This document shows, piece after piece, positions 54,253-64,000 of a stretch of 64,000 nucleotides of DNA (its first letter is position 1; each line of letters opens with the position of its first letter). A model generated the notes under the pieces. That model did not search any database. It had not been told where the DNA came from and worked only from the letters and a program-made list of their open reading frames with translations. The position numbers and the translations under genes are program-made. The DNA is from Coleophoma eucalyptorum (Eukaryota; Ascomycota; Leotiomycetes; Helotiales; Dermateaceae), in the NCBI GenBank assembly GCA_026120035.1, contig JALRME010000004.1:186001-250000 (forward strand), written 5' to 3'.

Positions 54253-56398
54253 ATGTTCTCCGCCAAAAGCAGCCAGTTGGCTGCCAATGTACCTACACGC
54301 GCCACCGAAACTGAAGCCTGTATGTAGCATCTTGAAGCGCACTCCCGAGGCTGACATTTTTGGTATAGTGACAGATACCCTCTTTGCAATCGAGAGTGTC
54401 TTCAACAATGATATCACCCTGGCCGAAGAGGTACTTGCTAAGGGGAACTCCAGCTTCCATGAGGTTTGTGACTGAGATGGCGTCTTTCCTTTCGGAGAGC
54501 TGACTTAGATGCAGTTGGGGAAGGGACTGATGGTACTTTTGCGGACATCTTTGGGTTTTGATGGCGAGTCTTCGGGTAATGGTAAGTGATTCTGCGTCTC
54601 ATCAGTTTGGTCTGCATCTTTGACATTGAACTACCAGCTGCCAAATTCCTTGCCAACTCCCAAGCAAAGGCTAGCGCGCAACGATCGCAGATTGAAGCAC
54701 AAAGCGATACGAGCGATCCCATCTTTCCCCCTGGCTCTGAATACTCGGTCTGTCAAGCTGAGGCCCAGCTAGCCGCTGCCATTGTTGCGGTGCTCAGCCA
54801 GCGCATGGCAGAATATCTTCGAGGCCTTTACAAAATTCGACAGGCATACATGATTCTGCGAGGCATTGCAGATCATGAAAGACGTCGCGTGCGGCGTGAA
54901 AAGCTTAAGGAATTGAGCATCGCCAGAACTCGTGCAGCACTGGCAGCATCGACCCTAGACGATAAACCCCCGGTGGAGGACGAATCAGCCAACACCCTCT
55001 TTGACATCTCTACGCCAGACCTGAAGACGGTCGCCGACACCTATACTTATACGGGTACCAACTTGTGCTTCGGGGTTCTACTGGTGGCTCTTTCTATGAT
55101 CCCATCGGCTTTTCAACAGATCTTGCGAGTTGTAGGCTTCAAAGGAAACAAGGACCGTGGACTCGCTCTACTTTGGGAGACTTCCAAGTTCCCCAATGTC
55201 CATGGTGCTCTTGCTGCTTTGGTCCTCTTATCTTTCTACAATGCCGTCAGATCAGCCTGTGATATACTGGATGGTGAAAATTACCCCAAGAAGAGATGTG
55301 AAGAGTTGGTTGCAACAATGATCAAGAGGTATCCACAAAGTGTATTCTGGACTCTGGAGGAAGCTAGAATGACTGCTGCCCATCGCGAACTTGGGGATGC
55401 CATCGAAATCCTTAGTAAACCGGTTGACCATCCTGTTAAACAACTCATCTCCCTCACCTTGATTGAAAAGTCTATGTATCAGATGCTCCATCACGATTAT
55501 GAAGGTTGCGCCGAGAGCTTCGTTGGATGTATTGCTTTGAGCAAGTACTCACAGGCACTGTAAGTCCATTGATTTGAGAATTTCAAGATCCACTATTGAC
55601 GCTAACAGATACTACTACGATGCGGCCAACGCCAACGTTGAATTGTACCGCCTGGCCCAAACCTCTGATCCCGACCTCGCTGAAAAGTATAAGAAGCAAG
55701 CTACTGAGTATCTCCATACAGCTCTTCACGGAGTTGATAGGAAGACCTTGCTTTCTACCGAGCTTCCTTTTGATGCACTTGTAACCCGTAAAATCAACAA
55801 ATGGCAAGCACGAGCTGACCAGCTTGGTGTTGATCTTGTCGATGCTGTTGGAGTAAGTCCAATTGAGGAAATGATTTATTACTACGGTGGCCACAAGTGG
55901 ATGCAACGTCCAGAACTAGAGCAGTCTCTCGCTATGTTGTCATGGTCTGAAAATTCCAAAGACTGGGCTGTTGCCGAGGCCGATGAGCGTTGCATTCTGT
56001 ACCTTTTGAAAGCAGTCGTGCATCGCTGGCTTGGCGATCTGCCCGTGGCCAGATCACTTCTCATGCGCGTCTTGAATGAAGACCCAAAATCCTTCAAAGG
56101 GAAGTTAAATGACAATTGGATTTTACCATCAGCACACTATGAGATGGCCATTGTCTCCTGGACTGAGAGAAATGAACCTGGTAACAACCAGAAGGCCAAG
56201 GTTGAGGAGTGTGCTCAGTGGTTAGACAAAGTATCAAAATGGGAGAAATATGAGCTTGATGCACGGTATGTTCCGCTGGTATTGATAAATTAAAGTGACT
56301 CTGCTAATTTTGAACATAGTATTTCACTTAAGATCAGGGCTGCGCAAGATGTTGTTGCTACATATAGAAAGAAAGCCAAGATGGCAGCAAAGCATTGA
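54253..56398 (+). CDS. Iml2/TTC39-family protein (inclusion body clearance type)
   Basis: A tetratricopeptide-like helical-repeat protein of 626 residues with exons 54253..54319, 54375..54463, 54515..54581, 54638..55559, 55609..56265 and 56320..56398. Family blocks are the early 'LAEEVLAKGNSSFHELGKG', then PPGSEYSVCQAEAQL, LYKIRQAYMILRGI, CFGVLLVALSMIPSAFQQILRVVGFKG, and the repeats YYYDAANANVEL and RCILYLLKAVVHRWLGD. Yeast Iml2 acts with lipid droplets in clearing protein aggregates, and the role of filamentous-fungal copies is not established. The model seems shorter than I recall for the family (around 700), mainly at the N-terminus. The start is therefore the weakest element, and this could be a diverged paralogue. 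Confidence 0.82.
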
Positions 56399-57046: not shown

Positions 57047-58230
57047 ATGGCAAAACCTTCGAAAGAAATTCTAGTCTATGGAACAGGAGGTATGTCATAG
57101 ATTAATTTTTTTGAGTTGTGGTTGACCTCTTTTGTGGTAGCTGTGGGATCGATATTCGGATGGCGGGCTTCTCGCAATCCTCACGTGCGTGTTACCACCG
57201 TATGCCGTTCAAACTTCGAGGCAGTCAAGAAGTACGGCTTCACGATGAAAAGTCAAATGTGGGGTGAAGGGCATTTCCACCCGCACCGAGTTGTCCAGCA
57301 TCCTGAGCAGGTAGCGAAGGTGAAATTCGACTATGTAATCTTCGCCAACAAAATCATTGGCACCCCAGATAGATCTTTTTTACAAGACATCCGCCATGTT
57401 ATCAATCCACATACTTGCCTAGTAGCAACGCAGAATGGGTTTTGTGTTGAACCGACTCTTCGCCAAAGGTTTCCGGAGAATATTATCCTCTCGTCCATTT
57501 GTTATATAAGTTGTATTCAGCACAAGCCGGGATACGTCCAGCAAGTCGCACAAATCAATCCCAAAGCCTTTATCATTGGGTTATATCCTAACACAAAGGA
57601 TGGTGTACGCGTTCCACAACTTGAACACCTAGTTGGGCTGGATCCCAGATTTGGCCAAACGGCAGATCTCAATTCTGAACGATGGATGAAGCTCATCTTC
57701 AACGGGTCATGGAACCCAGTGGCAGCTCTCACAGGCCTGACTACCGACGCAATCTATAGGGATGCTGAGGCTCTCTCTATGGTGAAGAGTCTGGCGAACG
57801 AAATCTATACTGTTGCTGTCGCGAGCGGTATCTGTCTCTACCCAAACGCACCTTTTGTCACGACAGAGTGTGCAAGAGACCAGCCACCCATCACCTTGTC
57901 CATGCTGCAAGATGTACGTGCAGGCCGACAGATTGAGATCGATGCGCTTTGCGGTATGCTCTATTATTACATTGTCAGGTATGTAGTATTGATTGCTAAC
58001 TTTCTCTACTAGGCACGGTTTTGCATTTAGGTAGTCAACTAGGTGTACCAGTTCCCGTACTGCAAAGGACATACGCCTTACTTCGGGTACTAAACCATGA
58101 GAATGCTCTTCGTTCAAGTCTATCCGTAAGAGAGCCGACTATGGAGTCTGGTGCGAATGAGTCGTGGGCGATTGGCGCTGCTGCGAGTCAGAGTAGTCAA
58201 ATTATGGCCGGTCCAGTTAAATTAGTTTAA
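57047..58230 (+). CDS. ApbA/PanE-family 2-keto acid reductase (ketopantoate / ketoisovalerate reductase-like)
   Basis: An NADPH-dependent reductase of 357 residues with exons 57047..57089, 57141..57953 and 58013..58230. The dinucleotide-binding motif is built across the first intron, LVYGTGG|AVGSIFGW (G-x-G-x-x-G type). FDYVIFANKI, ATQNGFCVEP and the catalytic-region block RWMKLIFNGSWNPVAALTG follow, then the C-terminal helical domain QDVRAGRQIEIDAL...LGVPVP typical of the family. Relatives make D-pantoate for CoA. In cyclodepsipeptide producers a member reduces 2-ketoisovalerate to D-hydroxyisovalerate (KIVR, established for beauvericin/enniatin). It is convergent with the P450 gene. The cluster context favours a specialised keto-acid role over housekeeping (inference). 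Confidence 0.88.
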
Positions 58231-58895
58231 ATATCTTCATAGAATTTGTGGAATCTAAGAATCTTTTTATAGAATACGGACAACATGTAAAGTCAACATG
58301 AGAAGTTTGCACGGAAAGACCTTTTGCCGCTGTTTCATGGTATGTCTTAATAATTAATAATCTCAGATGCCGTACACCTATGATGTAGTATTTGTCTACA
58401 GTTTATTTTGCGTTAAAGGAAGGTGGAGGTAACAATGCTCCGGGACTTCGCCACTACTCAGCTCCAACTACTTTTTCGATCAATGTGTGCCTTGACTTCG
58501 CTCACAATAATGCCGATCTGTCTCTGTATCATGATGCAGTTTTCACAAAATACTTCATAGGATTGACTCTTAGCATGAAATTTTTAAAGGACTATTCATG
58601 AAATCTTGTAGAATTTAATTATAAGCTGAAATCGGGGAGAATATACTTAAGCGACGAAGACGGAGGTAACTAGCAGTGGTGAAAGTAACTTGCCACTCGG
58701 TACGCACACAATTGCAGAACAAGATTGCAGAACGAAATAAATAGCAGATTGGCTCTCTATGAATTTCTGTACAGAAGTTTTCAAGGAAAACTAAGTTATT
58801 CATCCGCTCAATATCCCTAGTCCTGCTATCCCCTTCTGAACCAATGCCCGTAGAAGCGTTCATATCTTTTGCGATATCTTGTCTTTCGATCGTTG
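58231..58895. other. Intergenic: convergent 3' flanks
   Basis: About 665 bp between convergent reductase and P450 genes. No coding signal. Confidence 0.35.
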
Positions 58896-60843
58896 CTATC
58901 TCAAACGGAACTTCACAATAGGGCCTCTTTTGGAGCTTGTTACGTGGTCAAAAAGCTGGAATTCCGTTTCCCGCTGCCGTCCAGGGCAGGTATCGGCTGT
59001 GTTACCTTCACCTAGTCGGTTATTATCGCCCTCAACTGCGGCGATATCGAAGTTCCACAAGACAGTAGCAAATGTAAGCATCAGTTCTGCAAGCGCCAGT
59101 CCCTTACCCACGCAACTACGCGGTCCCAGCGAGAAGGGTGTGAAGGCTGATAAGGCAAGGTCGACCTGGCGCCGTGTCGCTGCTTCAGGACCTTCTAGCC
59201 AACGCTCTGGAAGATATTTGAAAGGGTCGGGAAAATAGGCCTTGTTGTGTTGAATACTATATATACCAGTGCCCACGTCGTACCCAGCAGGAATATGTTT
59301 TCCCTCTACCGTCAAGCCGCCAACATCGACCTCACGAAAAAGAGCACTACCAACGGGAGGCGACATCCTCATACATTCGTCAATACAGGCTCGAAGGTAG
59401 ATACAAGACGTTAATTTGGCTCCTAGTGCAATTTCTGATTCCGACTGGAAGCTCCTACGGACCTCAGCGGTCACTTTCGCGTAGGCATCCGGATTGCGAG
59501 TAAGGTAAAAAAATAAAGCAGCCATGGTGGTTGACGTTGTATCAGATCCTAAGAGCACGATCCAATATCAACGCTTGCACTTGGAATTGACTAAAATCAA
59601 GACGTTGGATTACGTACCAGCTACGACTAACGTTGTGCTTTCTGCACCAACTTCTGACATCTCTAAGTGATTGCCTGTGTCTGGATCTTTTGCTTCGATT
59701 AATACTGAGAAGATATCCTTGCTTTTCTGAGTACTCGCTGCTTGGAATCGAGCGAGTACGATCTTGGTGATAAATCTAATAAATGCATTTCGACCCTGGA
59801 TGGCATTGGGAAATAATTTCTTATCAAGCCGCCAGAATAAAAGCTGTGGGAAGAAGATGAGTGCACTTGTTCGCACATTCGACTTTTCGATGGCGTCGAC
59901 AACGTAGCGGCATACTGTACTGCCCAGGAGATTGTATTTCATGGTAAAAACGATATCGGACATAAGATCAAATCCCAAGTAGTTGCCTAATTTCATTAAT
60001 CAGTAAGCCAGCGCTTCGAGTTTCGGCACTGATTATCTTACACCATGGTGCCATGTCTCTTGGAGGTGACCATTCATTGTCGGAACACAATAAGCTGTTC
60101 TGTTCACCATGAATTCCAGGGTTGATGATAGGTGAGATACAGCTACAAAAGTGCTTGACATGTTCCATAATTATCCCCTCATATCGTCTTATGGCCGAGT
60201 CCGATAGCCCCTGTGCCATAATTCGGCGCCTCTTAGCTGCTTCTACCTTATTTAGGAGTGTAAGTGTATTCGGTGCCCGATGAATCATGGCGTTGTAAGA
60301 CTTGCTCTTGAGGATATTCTTTCCATTGGAGTAGATATCTGCATAATGTTAGCGAGATGCCTTATGAGAAGAGTCTAGGTATGCTTTGACTGCATAGCAA
60401 ATCAAGACATAATTCACCTTTCATTGCCCCAGCCGTGTTGCATAATAACTTATCAGGCCCATATCTGACATAGTCACCTGCAGTGATAGGTTAGCATCAG
60501 CGTCATCGCTTGCGTGGCCTGCGTCTAGGGATGAATGCCAACAAACCATATTTCTGATGGCACCGGTACATATCAAGGTGAATGTCACCTCTCCAGGCAT
60601 GGTAAGCAGCATAGGCACTGGTGAGTTTCCCCAACAGAGGTCCTGGATATTTGGCATATGGATGGAAGTATAACACCCATACTATATACCCACAGACCTA
60701 TCGAGCAAGGTTAGATATCAGATTCTGTTCTCGTTTCAGCTTGATTTACATACTGATGCGAGGAGACCCCCTAATATTAAACTCAATAATCTGAATAAAG
60801 AGACACCCAAATGACCTGGAAGTATCTCTTGAACAGACATCAT
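58896..60843 (-). CDS. Cytochrome P450 monooxygenase
   Basis: A membrane-anchored haem monooxygenase of 539 residues; exons in transcription order are 60843..60754, 60697..60547, 60477..60418, 60338..60042, 59986..59618 and 59548..58896. Features in order: N-terminal hydrophobic anchor ([15 protein letters not shown]), proline-rich hinge [14 protein letters not shown]-helix region, the oxygen-binding I-helix [10 protein letters not shown]-x-x-R in ECMR (about 380-383), PERW, and the haem loop [12 protein letters not shown] with Cys at about 468. It is complete and apparently functional. Beside a keto-acid reductase and a BCAT-like aminotransferase, oxidation of a fatty acyl or amino-acid chain is a reasonable inference. 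The substrate cannot be read from sequence. Confidence 0.9.
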
Positions 60844-61459
60844 GCTGGTTTGGGATGTCTGGATAAAATTTGAGCGCGAAATCTGGATTTGTAGAGAGCA
60901 CACGACGTGATTTAAAGCTGAGCTAAATTTCACAAATTGACTGTTCAAAGCATTATAATCCGGTAAGATGACAGCGTACGCTGAAGGTGGCCTGCTATGG
61001 CATCTAGCCTATGCCGGACCGTAAAAGGTGTTTAGGAACTTCATCGTACTTAGTGTAGAACTGTAGGCTCTCCCAGGATGAAAATGCCAGCAATCCCCTA
61101 GCATAACTAGTGCACATTTCATCTTACTCGCCAGTGGAAACACTGAGGGCTGGGACTTAGAGCCTGGTGCGGTAAATACCTCAATGACCTTACAACACTA
61201 CTATTGGTCTCTTAAAATATTACTATCCTGCTTCGTAATATCTCGGTCACTCTGCCGTTGTAAGTTTATGATCTTCCTTACTAAGAATGGCACATCATAC
61301 GAACTAGTCCTATAAGGGCACTGATTAATAATTGGGGAAAAGAGCCAAGCCATTCAGCCTTCAGCATTCAAAATTCTGAATCCGGCTTCTATGCAGATTT
61401 CAGCTATCTCAGTCAGACTATTTAAGATATGATTTTTTAACCAAATACTGCCCGTATAT
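60844..61459. other. Intergenic: P450 promoter
   Basis: About 615 bp between same-strand genes. No coding signal and no clear motif. Confidence 0.35.
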
Positions 61460-62902
61460 TTACGCTTGAACTGTTACAGAAACTATACCATTTTGTGTGC
61501 CATCGGTTGCCTTGTGTCCGTTGAGTTCAGTGCTCTCAGCCGCAGTCTCAGCTTGCACAACTCTCATTAGCCATCCAAAAGAGTCGACAGCCTTTCCCTT
61601 CTGGATATTCTTAAGCGCCGATGCAATGGCTATGGTACCTGATCCTGCCTCCACTGCACCGCCTTGATATGTGAATTTTTCACCTGTGCTCTTAAGCGTG
61701 ATGGACTTGATTGGAAGAAATGCAGCCGCTGTTCCAACGGCAACCACCTCTGAGAAGGAGCTCAACTCATGGTACTTAATCTAGGAAATAAATCAGTGAC
61801 TTAATTTCTGAAACGATAACGCATAAATTTAACAACTTACCGACCGCCGCTCGGTTTTCCATCCTAGACTTCTTGCTAGCTCCATTGCGCTCTCACTCGT
61901 GACACTTTGAACAATACTGGAACTATCGGGTACAACCATTGTATATTCAGTCATGTCTCCCACCTTGTTCTCTTTAATACCTACAAAGCCCGCAGTAGAG
62001 AACTCCTCAATGGTACTTCGTGTCTGGCTATCGAGGTGCAAAGTTATCCCGTAACCCTGACTGCGAGCGGCGTCGCTCCAACGCATGACTGGAGCATAAT
62101 TACCACCAACTTTGGCGGATCCAGTTCCACGAGGAGCAGCGCGGTCAAAGTCTTCCAGAATCAAACAATCGAGTGATTCAACCCCGTGATAGGAATTTCC
62201 AGGAATTGCATAGACGCAAAAGATATATTCGTCAGTTGGACTCAGGGCAAGGCTCGCACTAGAGCCAAACATGACAGGCCTTATGTAGAGCAGTGCCTCC
62301 GCTTCGTGTGGCGGTACAAACTCAGCGTTCTTGGATACAACCAAGTTAATACTTTCAAGGAAGACAGACTCAGGTACCGGGGGCATTGAGACGCATGAGC
62401 CAGAATGAGACATACGCGTAGCATGAAACTGAGGACGGAAAATATTAATATCATTACTGGGTGACCGGAAAGCTATCAAGGAAAGTTAGCAGGAAAAGGG
62501 ATAAAATTAATATGAACTTATAATTGAGCGAGCTCTTGCCTTTCAGTCCTTCATACGCCTGCTGACCTGCCACACTGTTAATTGACTTCCATACACAAAG
62601 TCATAGCTGCCATGATTACCATAATTGAGCGCTGGAGCCAACCCATGGATACGCAAAAATGGATCTTCTACAAAGACGGGAGTAGTCCATGCGCCTGTCT
62701 TTCTACTATATCTGGCTTCAACGTGCCCGTTAACTAAATTCGATTAGCGAAAATTCAGCGGCATGAAAAAGAACATGCAGACCTTCGGTGACTGCAACAC
62801 CAAGTTTCTTCCAGTCTCCATAGCATTTGTTAGCTTGTACGTGAATTTTTTTACAATCGTGACTTTACCAATAGACTCAGTTGGTGGTGGCGGGAATGAC
62901 AT
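61460..62902 (-). CDS. Branched-chain-amino-acid-aminotransferase-like enzyme (PLP fold type IV)
   Basis: A PLP enzyme of 386 residues that would transaminate a hydrophobic 2-keto acid. Exons in transcription order are 62902..62869, 62815..62783, 62733..62620, 62566..62540, 62472..61841 and 61780..61460. Family blocks are VNGHVEARYS, DPFLRIHGLAPALNYG, QQAYEGLKAFRSP, LYIRPVMFGSSASLAL, the PLP-lysine block GSAKVGGNYAP (Lys about 190), IEEFSTAGFVGI and a VAVGTAAAFLPI core near the end. The GLK|AFR junction needs a GC-AG intron (AAG|GCAAGA). The N-terminus (MSFPPPPTESIDWKKLG) has no mitochondrial presequence, unlike a housekeeping mitochondrial BCAT. BCAT-like genes accompany FAS genes in HC-toxin, apicidin and aspercryptin clusters (established), which fits its position next to a FAS-alpha gene. 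Confidence 0.9.
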
Positions 62903-63673
62903 TGCTCAATAACCTTCAGCTGGCTTAGTGGGTGATTTTATGTATCGACTTGCATAAGTTACTCAAGTATGCCTTGAGTTCGTTATTATCGAACTCGCCA
63001 TACTGTGCAGGAGAGAGCCTCTCCCTATATGTCTATGGAAACTTGTTATGTAAGCAACCCGGATTTCTGATAGTGAGCTTGCCCTCTAAATTGTACATTT
63101 GTTGTACGGCTTGGGGCTTACGGTTACAGTATCTTTCAGCTATCACCCCGCATCATTCCGCACAAATAAGCGGGGCGCTGCTACAGTACATGTATGTGTA
63201 ATCTGGTTCGCTGCATAGCTGTGCCACACCTGAGTCAGAAACATAGTCACTCCCTTGCAAGCATCAAGTTAGGTTTCACCAAAAGCCTCAGCCTCGTACA
63301 ATTGTGGTTGCAGAAGCAACCACTTTCAAGACATATAGGATTGAATAGTCACCCTCGATACCGCTCGTAAGAATTATCAATTTCTCTGTTGGTTATTGGG
63401 GTGTTGTTAAAATGGCATTGATTAATTTTTGATTTATATTCGAATTTTGTTCAATTAATGCCACATACTTCTATATATTGGTCCAAAGGAGTACCGTATA
63501 ACCCCCTATTGGATGCGAATCCATTTACACCTGACCTTCGTGATCTTAATTAGTGCCCTAATCAATTTTAATGTTATTAAGCTTAAAAGAAATCTATATC
63601 CCCAGTCCCAGACCAAAATATACTAAAATTATAACCCGTTTGATTGTTGTCAGTGACGTAACAAACTCCTACA
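62903..63673. other. Intergenic: BCAT-like promoter and FAS 3' flank
   Basis: About 770 bp. On the minus strand I see nothing resembling a phosphopantetheinyl-transferase domain downstream of the FAS stop codon. Confidence 0.5.
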
Positions 63674-64000
63674 TTAAAAACTGTAACTCCCGTCATTGTT
63701 TTCCGTTAATCTTGCATGCCAGTCTGTTAGCACGCTGAGCTCTTGCTCGGATGTATAAGGCGCATGGTCTTTGGAAACGAAGATGGTATTATTCAGTAAG
63801 GCATCGTGGAAGTGCCGATAGGCGTGTTGTTGCCTGTCTAAATTCCTTTTCTGGTACTCCATATATTTGTCTTCCTCGAGGGTTGCAAAGAAGTACCGAG
63901 GGTGAACACCGATGGCTTGAGCTCCTTTCTGTCCAAACCCAAAAGAGGTTACTGAAAACGCATCCACTCCATCCGTCTGTATTCCATTCATAGGGAAGGT
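63674..64000 (-). CDS. Fatty acid synthase alpha subunit, C-terminal end (runs off the right edge)
   Basis: The last 108 codons of a fungal type-I FAS alpha subunit, open through the window edge. The ketoacyl-synthase C-terminal block is unmistakable: VDAFSVTSFGFGQKGAQAIGVHPRYFFA, followed by an AYRHFHDAL helix and FVSKDHAPYTSEQE. In primary-metabolism FAS alpha subunits this region is followed by a phosphopantetheinyl transferase domain of more than 100 residues. Here a stop codon (63674-63676) follows shortly after, and no such domain is visible in the 770 bp beyond. That points to a specialised FAS depending on another transferase. It is transcribed in the same direction as the BCAT-like and P450 genes. 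Confidence 0.88.
   Translation of the reverse strand, partial: TFPMNGIQTDGVDAFSVTSFGFGQKGAQAIGVHPRYFFATLEEDKYMEYQKRNLDRQQHAYRHFHDALLNNTIFVSKDHAPYTSEQELSVLTDWHARLTENNDGSYSF

Follow-up and report, generated by a model that had tools for sequence, protein, structure and literature searches.

The aspercryptin (atn) cluster of Aspergillus nidulans encodes both the alpha and the beta subunit of a fatty acid synthase (FAS) together with a protein resembling branched-chain aminotransferases (BCAT-like), and its product is a linear lipopeptide made by six modules. In the beauvericin system, a reductase of the PanE family (KIVR) is encoded beside the nonribosomal peptide synthetase (NRPS). The apicidin F (APF) cluster of Fusarium fujikuroi contains FAS alpha, a BCAT, a pyrroline-5-carboxylate (P5C) reductase and cytochromes P450; in the available parts of its description, the proposed source of the 2-amino fatty acid is the pair of FAS alpha and BCAT, and pipecolate is what the P5C reductase serves (PMC4109984). 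For leucinostatin (lcs), from Purpureocillium lilacinum, the available parts of the article give the synthetase LcsA as PCP-(C-A-PCP)x10-NAD (PCP, peptidyl carrier protein; C, condensation; A, adenylation) and a gene table with lcsP (Aminotran_4), lcsD (acyl-CoA ligase), three P450s, the bZIP gene lcsL, ABC genes and two polyketide synthase (PKS) genes (PMC4946873). A leucinostatin-like cluster has been proposed for the emericellipsins (excerpt of PMC13207871). Here, we describe a locus of Coleophoma eucalyptorum, centred on a large NRPS gene, that shares traits with several of these systems.

The locus lies on a contig of 1.75 Mb (JALRME010000004.1, C46 below) in an assembly of 45.26 Mb and 101 contigs. 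The window is the whole stretch of 64,000 nucleotides initially considered (C46:186001-250000). We read the contig rightward to C46:329000, with a numbering that continues that of the window (ext; contig position = 186000 + ext); the gene models right of the window come from our own splice finder and are approximate. Gene content, domain order, paralogy and motifs point to a cluster of about 76 kb (C46:243047-318884) whose product is probably a linear, N-acylated peptide of 11 residues, of the leucinostatin/lipopeptaibol kind and carrying a FAS-derived 2-amino fatty acid. An earlier interpretation of the window from its letters alone (the sequence-only reading) had seen in four adjacent genes at its right end a pathway for a 2-amino or 2-hydroxy acid. 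All four genes were confirmed by gene models and family matches. The biosynthetic cluster, its NRPS, the non-housekeeping nature of FAS alpha and a BCAT apart from the presumed housekeeping clade stood up to the analysis; the expected FAS beta did not, and the 2-hydroxy building block was weakened.

The synthetase and its domain organisation

The NRPS gene (ext 91436-132884, plus strand) begins 27.4 kb past the end of the window, where such a gene had been predicted. Its three frames, joined by two canonical introns, encode 13,784 residues without a stop. The protein starts with the C-terminal remnant of an A domain, followed by a free thiolation (T) domain, a stretch resembling an epimerisation (E) domain, eleven C-A-T modules and a terminal thioester reductase. 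This corresponds to the layout T-(C-A-T)x11-reductase, with E domains after modules 4 and 8, both carrying the motif HHLV[IV]DLVSW. A Pfam scan in six pieces returned 12 PP-binding matches (the free T and 11 others), 13 Condensation matches (11 C and two E domains) and 12 AMP-binding stretches, which count as 11 A domains because A6 was halved by a slice border. The terminal reductase matches PF07993 (140 bits) and TIGR01746 (238 bits, for a cut-off of 213). FAS alpha and the three pieces of the NRPS are the only open reading frames of more than 1000 amino acids at ext 57-143 kb; no PKS was seen among them, a look made without a PKS family scan and through which a PKS split by introns could slip.

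The beginning of the protein differs from the regular modules. At residues 14-106 the protein resembles the final part of the DltA model (29 bits), and this A-domain remnant is all that precedes the free T domain, near residue 168. Between the free T and C1, the E motif is broken and the similarity to the E domain of module 8 falls to 24% over 220 residues; residues 201-640 have no Pfam match. Residues 1-640 (ext 91436-93355) thus have the appearance of a decayed first module, with an A remnant, a T domain and a broken E-like stretch. The C domains C1, C5 and C9 are 34-38% alike and only 18-24% similar to the other eight. Since C5 and C9 follow E domains, C1, which groups with them, would be of the D-accepting type. 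The domains A1 and A5 are 52% alike and have the common code DVFF[V/L]GIIC, for which we suspect a proline-type substrate.

The selectivity of the A domains bears on the 2-hydroxy acid. Asp235, typically replaced in A domains that activate keto acids, is kept in all eleven. According to the available parts of the articles concerned, this residue holds the amino group in amino-acid-selecting A domains (PMC11355689), and one keto-acid A domain is an exception that retains it (PMC10949194). Because Asp235 is kept throughout, a 2-hydroxy acid is probably not among the building blocks that this NRPS selects, and the idea of a depsipeptide line in which an A domain takes a hydroxy acid is left unsupported. 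A motif look-up, the only search made for it, found no N-methyltransferase motif in the NRPS, which further weakens the 2-hydroxy acid as a unit chosen by the line. Both features, and a layout that is not that of a cyclodepsipeptide synthetase, set the locus apart from the KIVR/beauvericin system.

Fatty acid synthase and aminotransferase

FAS alpha is encoded on the minus strand, from its C-terminus at 63674-64000 to about ext 68784 (C46:254784), and its main exon matches the acyl carrier protein (ACP), the helical and both ketoacyl synthase (KS) families. Counted by ACP, the genome has four FAS-alpha genes (6 matches, two of them first-exon pieces). It has three FAS-beta genes (3 matches), near the FAS alphas of contigs C35, C57 and C10. 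The FAS beta predicted beyond position 64000 was therefore not recovered: the genome-wide search gave no match on C46 and placed all three on other contigs. This absence is no argument against the pathway, because the apicidin F gene table has the alpha subunit only.

Aligned over 1458 columns, the C46 protein shares 51% identity with the C35 copy; it ends after the KS. The C35 and C57 proteins run on into a phosphopantetheinyl transferase (PPTase) region, and the open frame of the C10 copy also stops. The PPTase (ACPS family) was found in the C57 protein and not in that of C46; the C35 region was judged by alignment, and the scanned C10 piece is short of its last residues. When the PPTase regions of C35 and C57 were searched against ext 59001-70000, only the last residues of the C46 FAS alpha itself (E 3e-12), which correspond to the stretch ahead of the PPTase in C35 and C57, and chance matches were obtained. 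The C46 protein retains the ACP serine, the ketoreductase (KR) motif YAESK and the KS motifs GACATS, HGTST and TGHSKGA. GACATS is also present in the C57 and C10 proteins, and C35 lacks that exact form.

In a protein search, 363 of the 7994 proteins scored reached an E value of 0.001 or better. Among the best 120 of these 363, the closest is P0138 (53%), and PF01648 is absent from both P0138 and P0156 (51%). In a tree of 23 of these 120 with the four copies of the genome, the C46 protein groups with P0138 (SH-aLRT 99); its grouping with P0156 (83) and the C10 copy (90) is less firm, and it falls outside the clade of the C35 copy. Branches are very long in this tree, and the program warns of false joins. 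The C35 copy is the housekeeping orthologue, at 90% to P0177. Hence the cluster copy is not the housekeeping FAS alpha, nor the only one, as four copies, the missing PPTase and the C35 orthologue rule out.

Two further FAS loci were observed in the genome. The one at C10:22606-48676 (L026-L029) is a second specialised locus, with FAS beta, FAS alpha, a P450 and a protein resembling cytochrome-b5 reductase. The third alpha/beta pair, at C57:88716-109804 (L030, L031, L035), has a FAS alpha with the PPTase domain and lies near an AflR-domain Zn2Cys6 regulator, an FSH1 hydrolase and an O-methyltransferase.

The aminotransferase gene (61460-62902, minus strand, six exons, one of whose introns is of the GC-AG type in our model) encodes a class-IV, pyridoxal phosphate-dependent, BCAT-like protein (Aminotran_4, 84 bits). 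In our model, the protein begins with MSFPPPPTESIDW and has no presequence. Of 7998 proteins scored in a search, 5864 had an E value of at most 0.001, and the best 120 of these 5864 were used for a quick tree, which carries a false-join warning for the cluster protein and P0104; a more careful tree has 43 of the 120 and two rows from the genome itself. In both trees, the cluster protein groups with P0078, P0104, P0108, P0115, P0118, P0125 and P0137 (support 97/94 in the careful one) and stands apart from the large group of the C35 copy, which we presume to be housekeeping. Joining it with the C35 copy and the two rows nearest to that copy, P0043 and P0052, a group chosen after the quick tree, was rejected by the approximately unbiased (AU) test (p 2.9e-8). 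The cluster protein is 64% identical to the C35 copy over 270 residues and 27% to the C57 copy, which we take to be the mitochondrial/cytosolic primary type. The C35 copy shares 92% identity with a Coleophoma crateriformis protein; the two group together, along with a protein of Phlyctema vagabunda. The values for the C35 and C57 copies and the two trees lead us to reject a primary mitochondrial or cytosolic BCAT, in line with the sequence-only reading. Because the characterised TOXF, Aps4 and AtnJ proteins are outside the set of the trees, the label is "not housekeeping", which stops short of an identification as TOXF.

The PanE-type reductase

The left-most gene of the proposed cluster (exons 57047-57089, 57141-57953 and 58013-58230, plus strand) encodes a reductase of the PanE/ApbA family, similar to ketopantoate reductases, whose role in the cluster is uncertain. 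It matches ApbA_C (106 bits), ApbA (81 bits) and TIGR00745 of NCBIfam (164 bits, for a cut-off of 141), and its best relative in the PDB is 3i83, a 2-dehydropantoate 2-reductase (124 bits). Lys198, Asn202, Ser268 and Glu280 (query numbering), presumably the catalytic residues, are invariant across 10 aligned rows. Counting this gene, the genome has ten loci of the ApbA family (14 exon matches). A protein search that needs shared exact words, and may miss relatives, found 17 homologues, the best seven being unnamed and 42-58% identical; no named fungal relative and no KIVR is among these 17.

Other genes of the locus

Between the reductase and the aminotransferase, a P450 gene (about 58896-60843, minus strand) scores 201 bits on a hand-joined model whose N-terminal exons are approximate. 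To the right of FAS alpha, a 2OG-Fe(II) oxygenase (ext 70420-71513, minus strand; DIOX_N 78 bits, 2OG-FeII_Oxy 43 bits) matches PDB chain 9ktp, "ucsF", with 340 bits over 319 residues, the next chain having 104 bits. By this full-length similarity the enzyme is of the UcsF type, with a predicted activity. UcsF serves the UCS1025A pathway, where it makes 3-methylproline from isoleucine. We met no account of its function in the literature searched, which included parts of PMC12899673 and PMC12136951. The neighbouring P5C reductase gene (ext about 72170-73172, C46:258170-259172, plus strand; P5CR_dimer 92 bits) is one of five such loci in the genome. In the echinocandins, according to the available parts of PMC7778625, the product of a leucine dioxygenase cyclises and is then reduced to methylproline by a reductase encoded outside the cluster. 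By analogy, the pair of oxygenase and P5C reductase fits such a methylproline route, the alternative being pipecolate.

Further right are a NAD-binding protein named by eye (ext 73752-74880, minus strand), an ABC transporter (ext 76701-81421, plus strand; ABC_tran 63 bits on a single exon), a bZIP-like protein (ext 85787-87341, minus strand) and an acyl-AMP ligase (ext 88569-90621, minus strand; AMP-binding 132 bits), divergent from the NRPS gene. The ligase scores slightly low because the piece with the conserved A3 motif is missing from the model. Right of the NRPS we recognised by eye a zinc-cluster-like regulator (ext 133884 to about 136900, minus strand), an NmrA-like protein (ext 137517-138233, plus strand) and an OPT-like transporter (ext 138927-141441, minus strand). 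On the left flank, a protein on the plus strand (54253..56398), whose resemblance to IML2 we assume from its sequence without a family search, is probably outside the cluster.

Comparison with described clusters

As far as the available parts of its description go, the leucinostatin cluster shares with this locus the free N-terminal carrier, the row of C-A-T modules and the terminal reductase domain, as well as an acyl ligase, a class-IV aminotransferase, P450, a bZIP or bZIP-like protein and ABC transport. The two differ in the number of modules (11 here, 10 in leucinostatin), in the two E domains, absent from the published LcsA string, and in the lipid source, FAS alpha here and two PKS genes there. 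The PanE-type reductase, the UcsF-like oxygenase and the P5C reductase are absent from the published lcs gene table. The reducing PKS for acyl and AHMOD units, a trait of leucinostatin, was not found here among the long reading frames of ext 57-143 kb. The cluster works like a leucinostatin-type line, yet we do not class it as a leucinostatin cluster.

With apicidin F, the locus has in common a FAS alpha without FAS beta in the gene table, a BCAT-like aminotransferase, a P5C reductase and P450, again for the parts of the source at hand; the extra FAS alpha beside a BCAT-like gene, a trait of apicidin and HC-toxin, is present. That system uses four A domains for a cyclic tetrapeptide, whereas the synthetase here has 11 modules and would release its product by reduction, and an acyl ligase and a PanE-type gene accompany it. 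Aspercryptin resembles the locus in the combination of FAS and BCAT-like genes and in its linear lipopeptide logic, but here there is no FAS beta and there are 11 modules.

Proposed pathway and alternatives

We infer the chemical steps, the chain length and the residue identities of the product as follows. The cluster FAS alpha would pair with a FAS beta encoded elsewhere and make a medium-chain acyl chain, which the P450 may oxidise towards a 2-oxo acid. The aminotransferase would turn the latter into an L-2-amino fatty acid, to be taken up by a single A domain among the 11. The lipid cap may come from an acyl group that the stand-alone acyl-AMP ligase attaches to the free T domain at the N-terminus, and the UcsF-type oxygenase together with a P5C reductase (one of the genome's five, whether that of the cluster or not) could supply a methylproline-type residue. 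The NRPS would then join 11 residues, with residues 4 and 8 epimerised to the D form, the C-terminal reductase domain would release an aldehyde or an alcohol, and the ABC transporter would export the product.

Several observations weigh against this pathway. The specialised group of aminotransferases has long branches and an inner support of 84/13 beside P0115 and the Aspergillus rows P0104 and P0108; the second-nearest row to the cluster protein by path, P0022, is on the housekeeping side, as are the best-scoring search matches. P0169, inside the housekeeping FAS-alpha clade, also lacks PF01648, and PPTase loss alone is therefore no proof of a specialised role. Three frames are needed to cover the coding region of the P5C reductase, and we see no intron that would join the last two; an assembly error, unrecognised splicing or decay may be the cause. 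The bZIP-like match (24 bits) is below the Pfam cut-off of 27.6. In eight upstream regions, the commonest promoter words are within the range of 60 shuffles, and GC content does not separate cluster from flank genes. Two stretches, ext 73.7-76.1 kb and 82-85.8 kb, contain no gene with a clear part in the pathway, and the PanE-type reductase has no place in the proposed scheme.

The last point has two possible answers: either the reductase provides the free N-terminal T domain with a D-2-hydroxyacyl starter, or its gene lies outside the cluster. The second answer, which is compatible with the pathway proposed above and puts the boundary between the reductase and the P450 genes, has a good chance of being right, if slightly short of even. 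The reductase is the outermost gene and is needed by no step, ten ApbA-family loci exist in the genome, and no promoter word is shared; on the other hand, the mere 17 homologues argue against a widely conserved gene, with the reservation that the search may miss relatives. The first answer would divide one FAS-derived 2-oxo acid, which the aminotransferase would turn into the L-2-amino acid and the reductase into a D-2-hydroxy starter, loaded by the ligase on the free T domain and accepted by C1. The grouping of C1 with C5 and C9, both of which come after E domains, speaks for it, as do the degenerate E-like stretch between the free T and C1, the intact conserved residues of the reductase and the lack of any A domain in the chain that looks suited to a hydroxy acid. 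We nevertheless hold it to be rather unlikely: C1-A1 may be a mere copy of C5-A5 (A1 and A5 being 52% alike), 33 kb separate the reductase gene, at the cluster's edge, from the NRPS, the substrate of the ligase is an assumption, and the D form of the product rests on KIVR (available parts of PMC10512319). The branch point between aminotransferase and reductase that the sequence-only reading had pointed out does not hold in its proposed form, and may survive only as such a starter. A more doubtful extension is an exchange of starter, in which the old first module (A-T-E) would have become the loading site for a D-2-hydroxy fatty acyl starter supplied in trans, the aminotransferase sharing the 2-oxo acid.

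Two other alternatives concern the lipid itself and the unity of the locus. The FAS chain could be the N-terminal acyl cap only, with the aminotransferase either aminating the peptide aldehyde released by the reductase domain or supplying an ordinary branched residue. The ligase divergent from the NRPS and the free T domain preceded by a mere remnant of an A domain would suit this, and LcsP of leucinostatin is proposed to act on the aldehyde (available parts of PMC4946873). We give it a minor but serious chance, since FAS alpha and aminotransferase are adjacent and on the same strand, a pair that is the proposed source of the 2-amino fatty acid in apicidin F (available parts of PMC4109984). 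The aminotransferase also falls, with weak inner support, with P0104 and P0108 of Aspergillus. We presume these two to be aspercryptin-type enzymes. The two stretches poor in genes (ext 73.7-76.1 kb and 82-85.8 kb) could instead mark the border between two adjacent clusters, one on the left for a small FAS/BCAT product and one on the right for an NRPS peptide. This is the least probable of the alternatives, given that, in the available parts of the sources, apicidin F has FAS alpha, BCAT, P5C reductase, P450 and NRPS in one cluster (PMC4109984), and leucinostatin has a BCAT-like gene, an acyl ligase and an NRPS with a reductase in one cluster (PMC4946873).

We thus favour the reading in which the locus makes a linear, N-acylated undecapeptide that contains a 2-amino fatty acid of FAS origin. 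We did not meet the cluster in a literature search that was thin on subscription journals, and make no claim of its absence from print. It is a large NRPS line of known style with a less usual lipid supply, and it unites two schemes documented separately: the supply of 2-amino fatty acids by FAS and BCAT, as in apicidin F, and the linear peptide line of leucinostatin, which starts from a lipid and ends in release by reduction. It gives a concrete product to seek, a candidate producer among Coleophoma-like fungi, and a test of how fungal NRPS lines exchange their lipid source from PKS to FAS.

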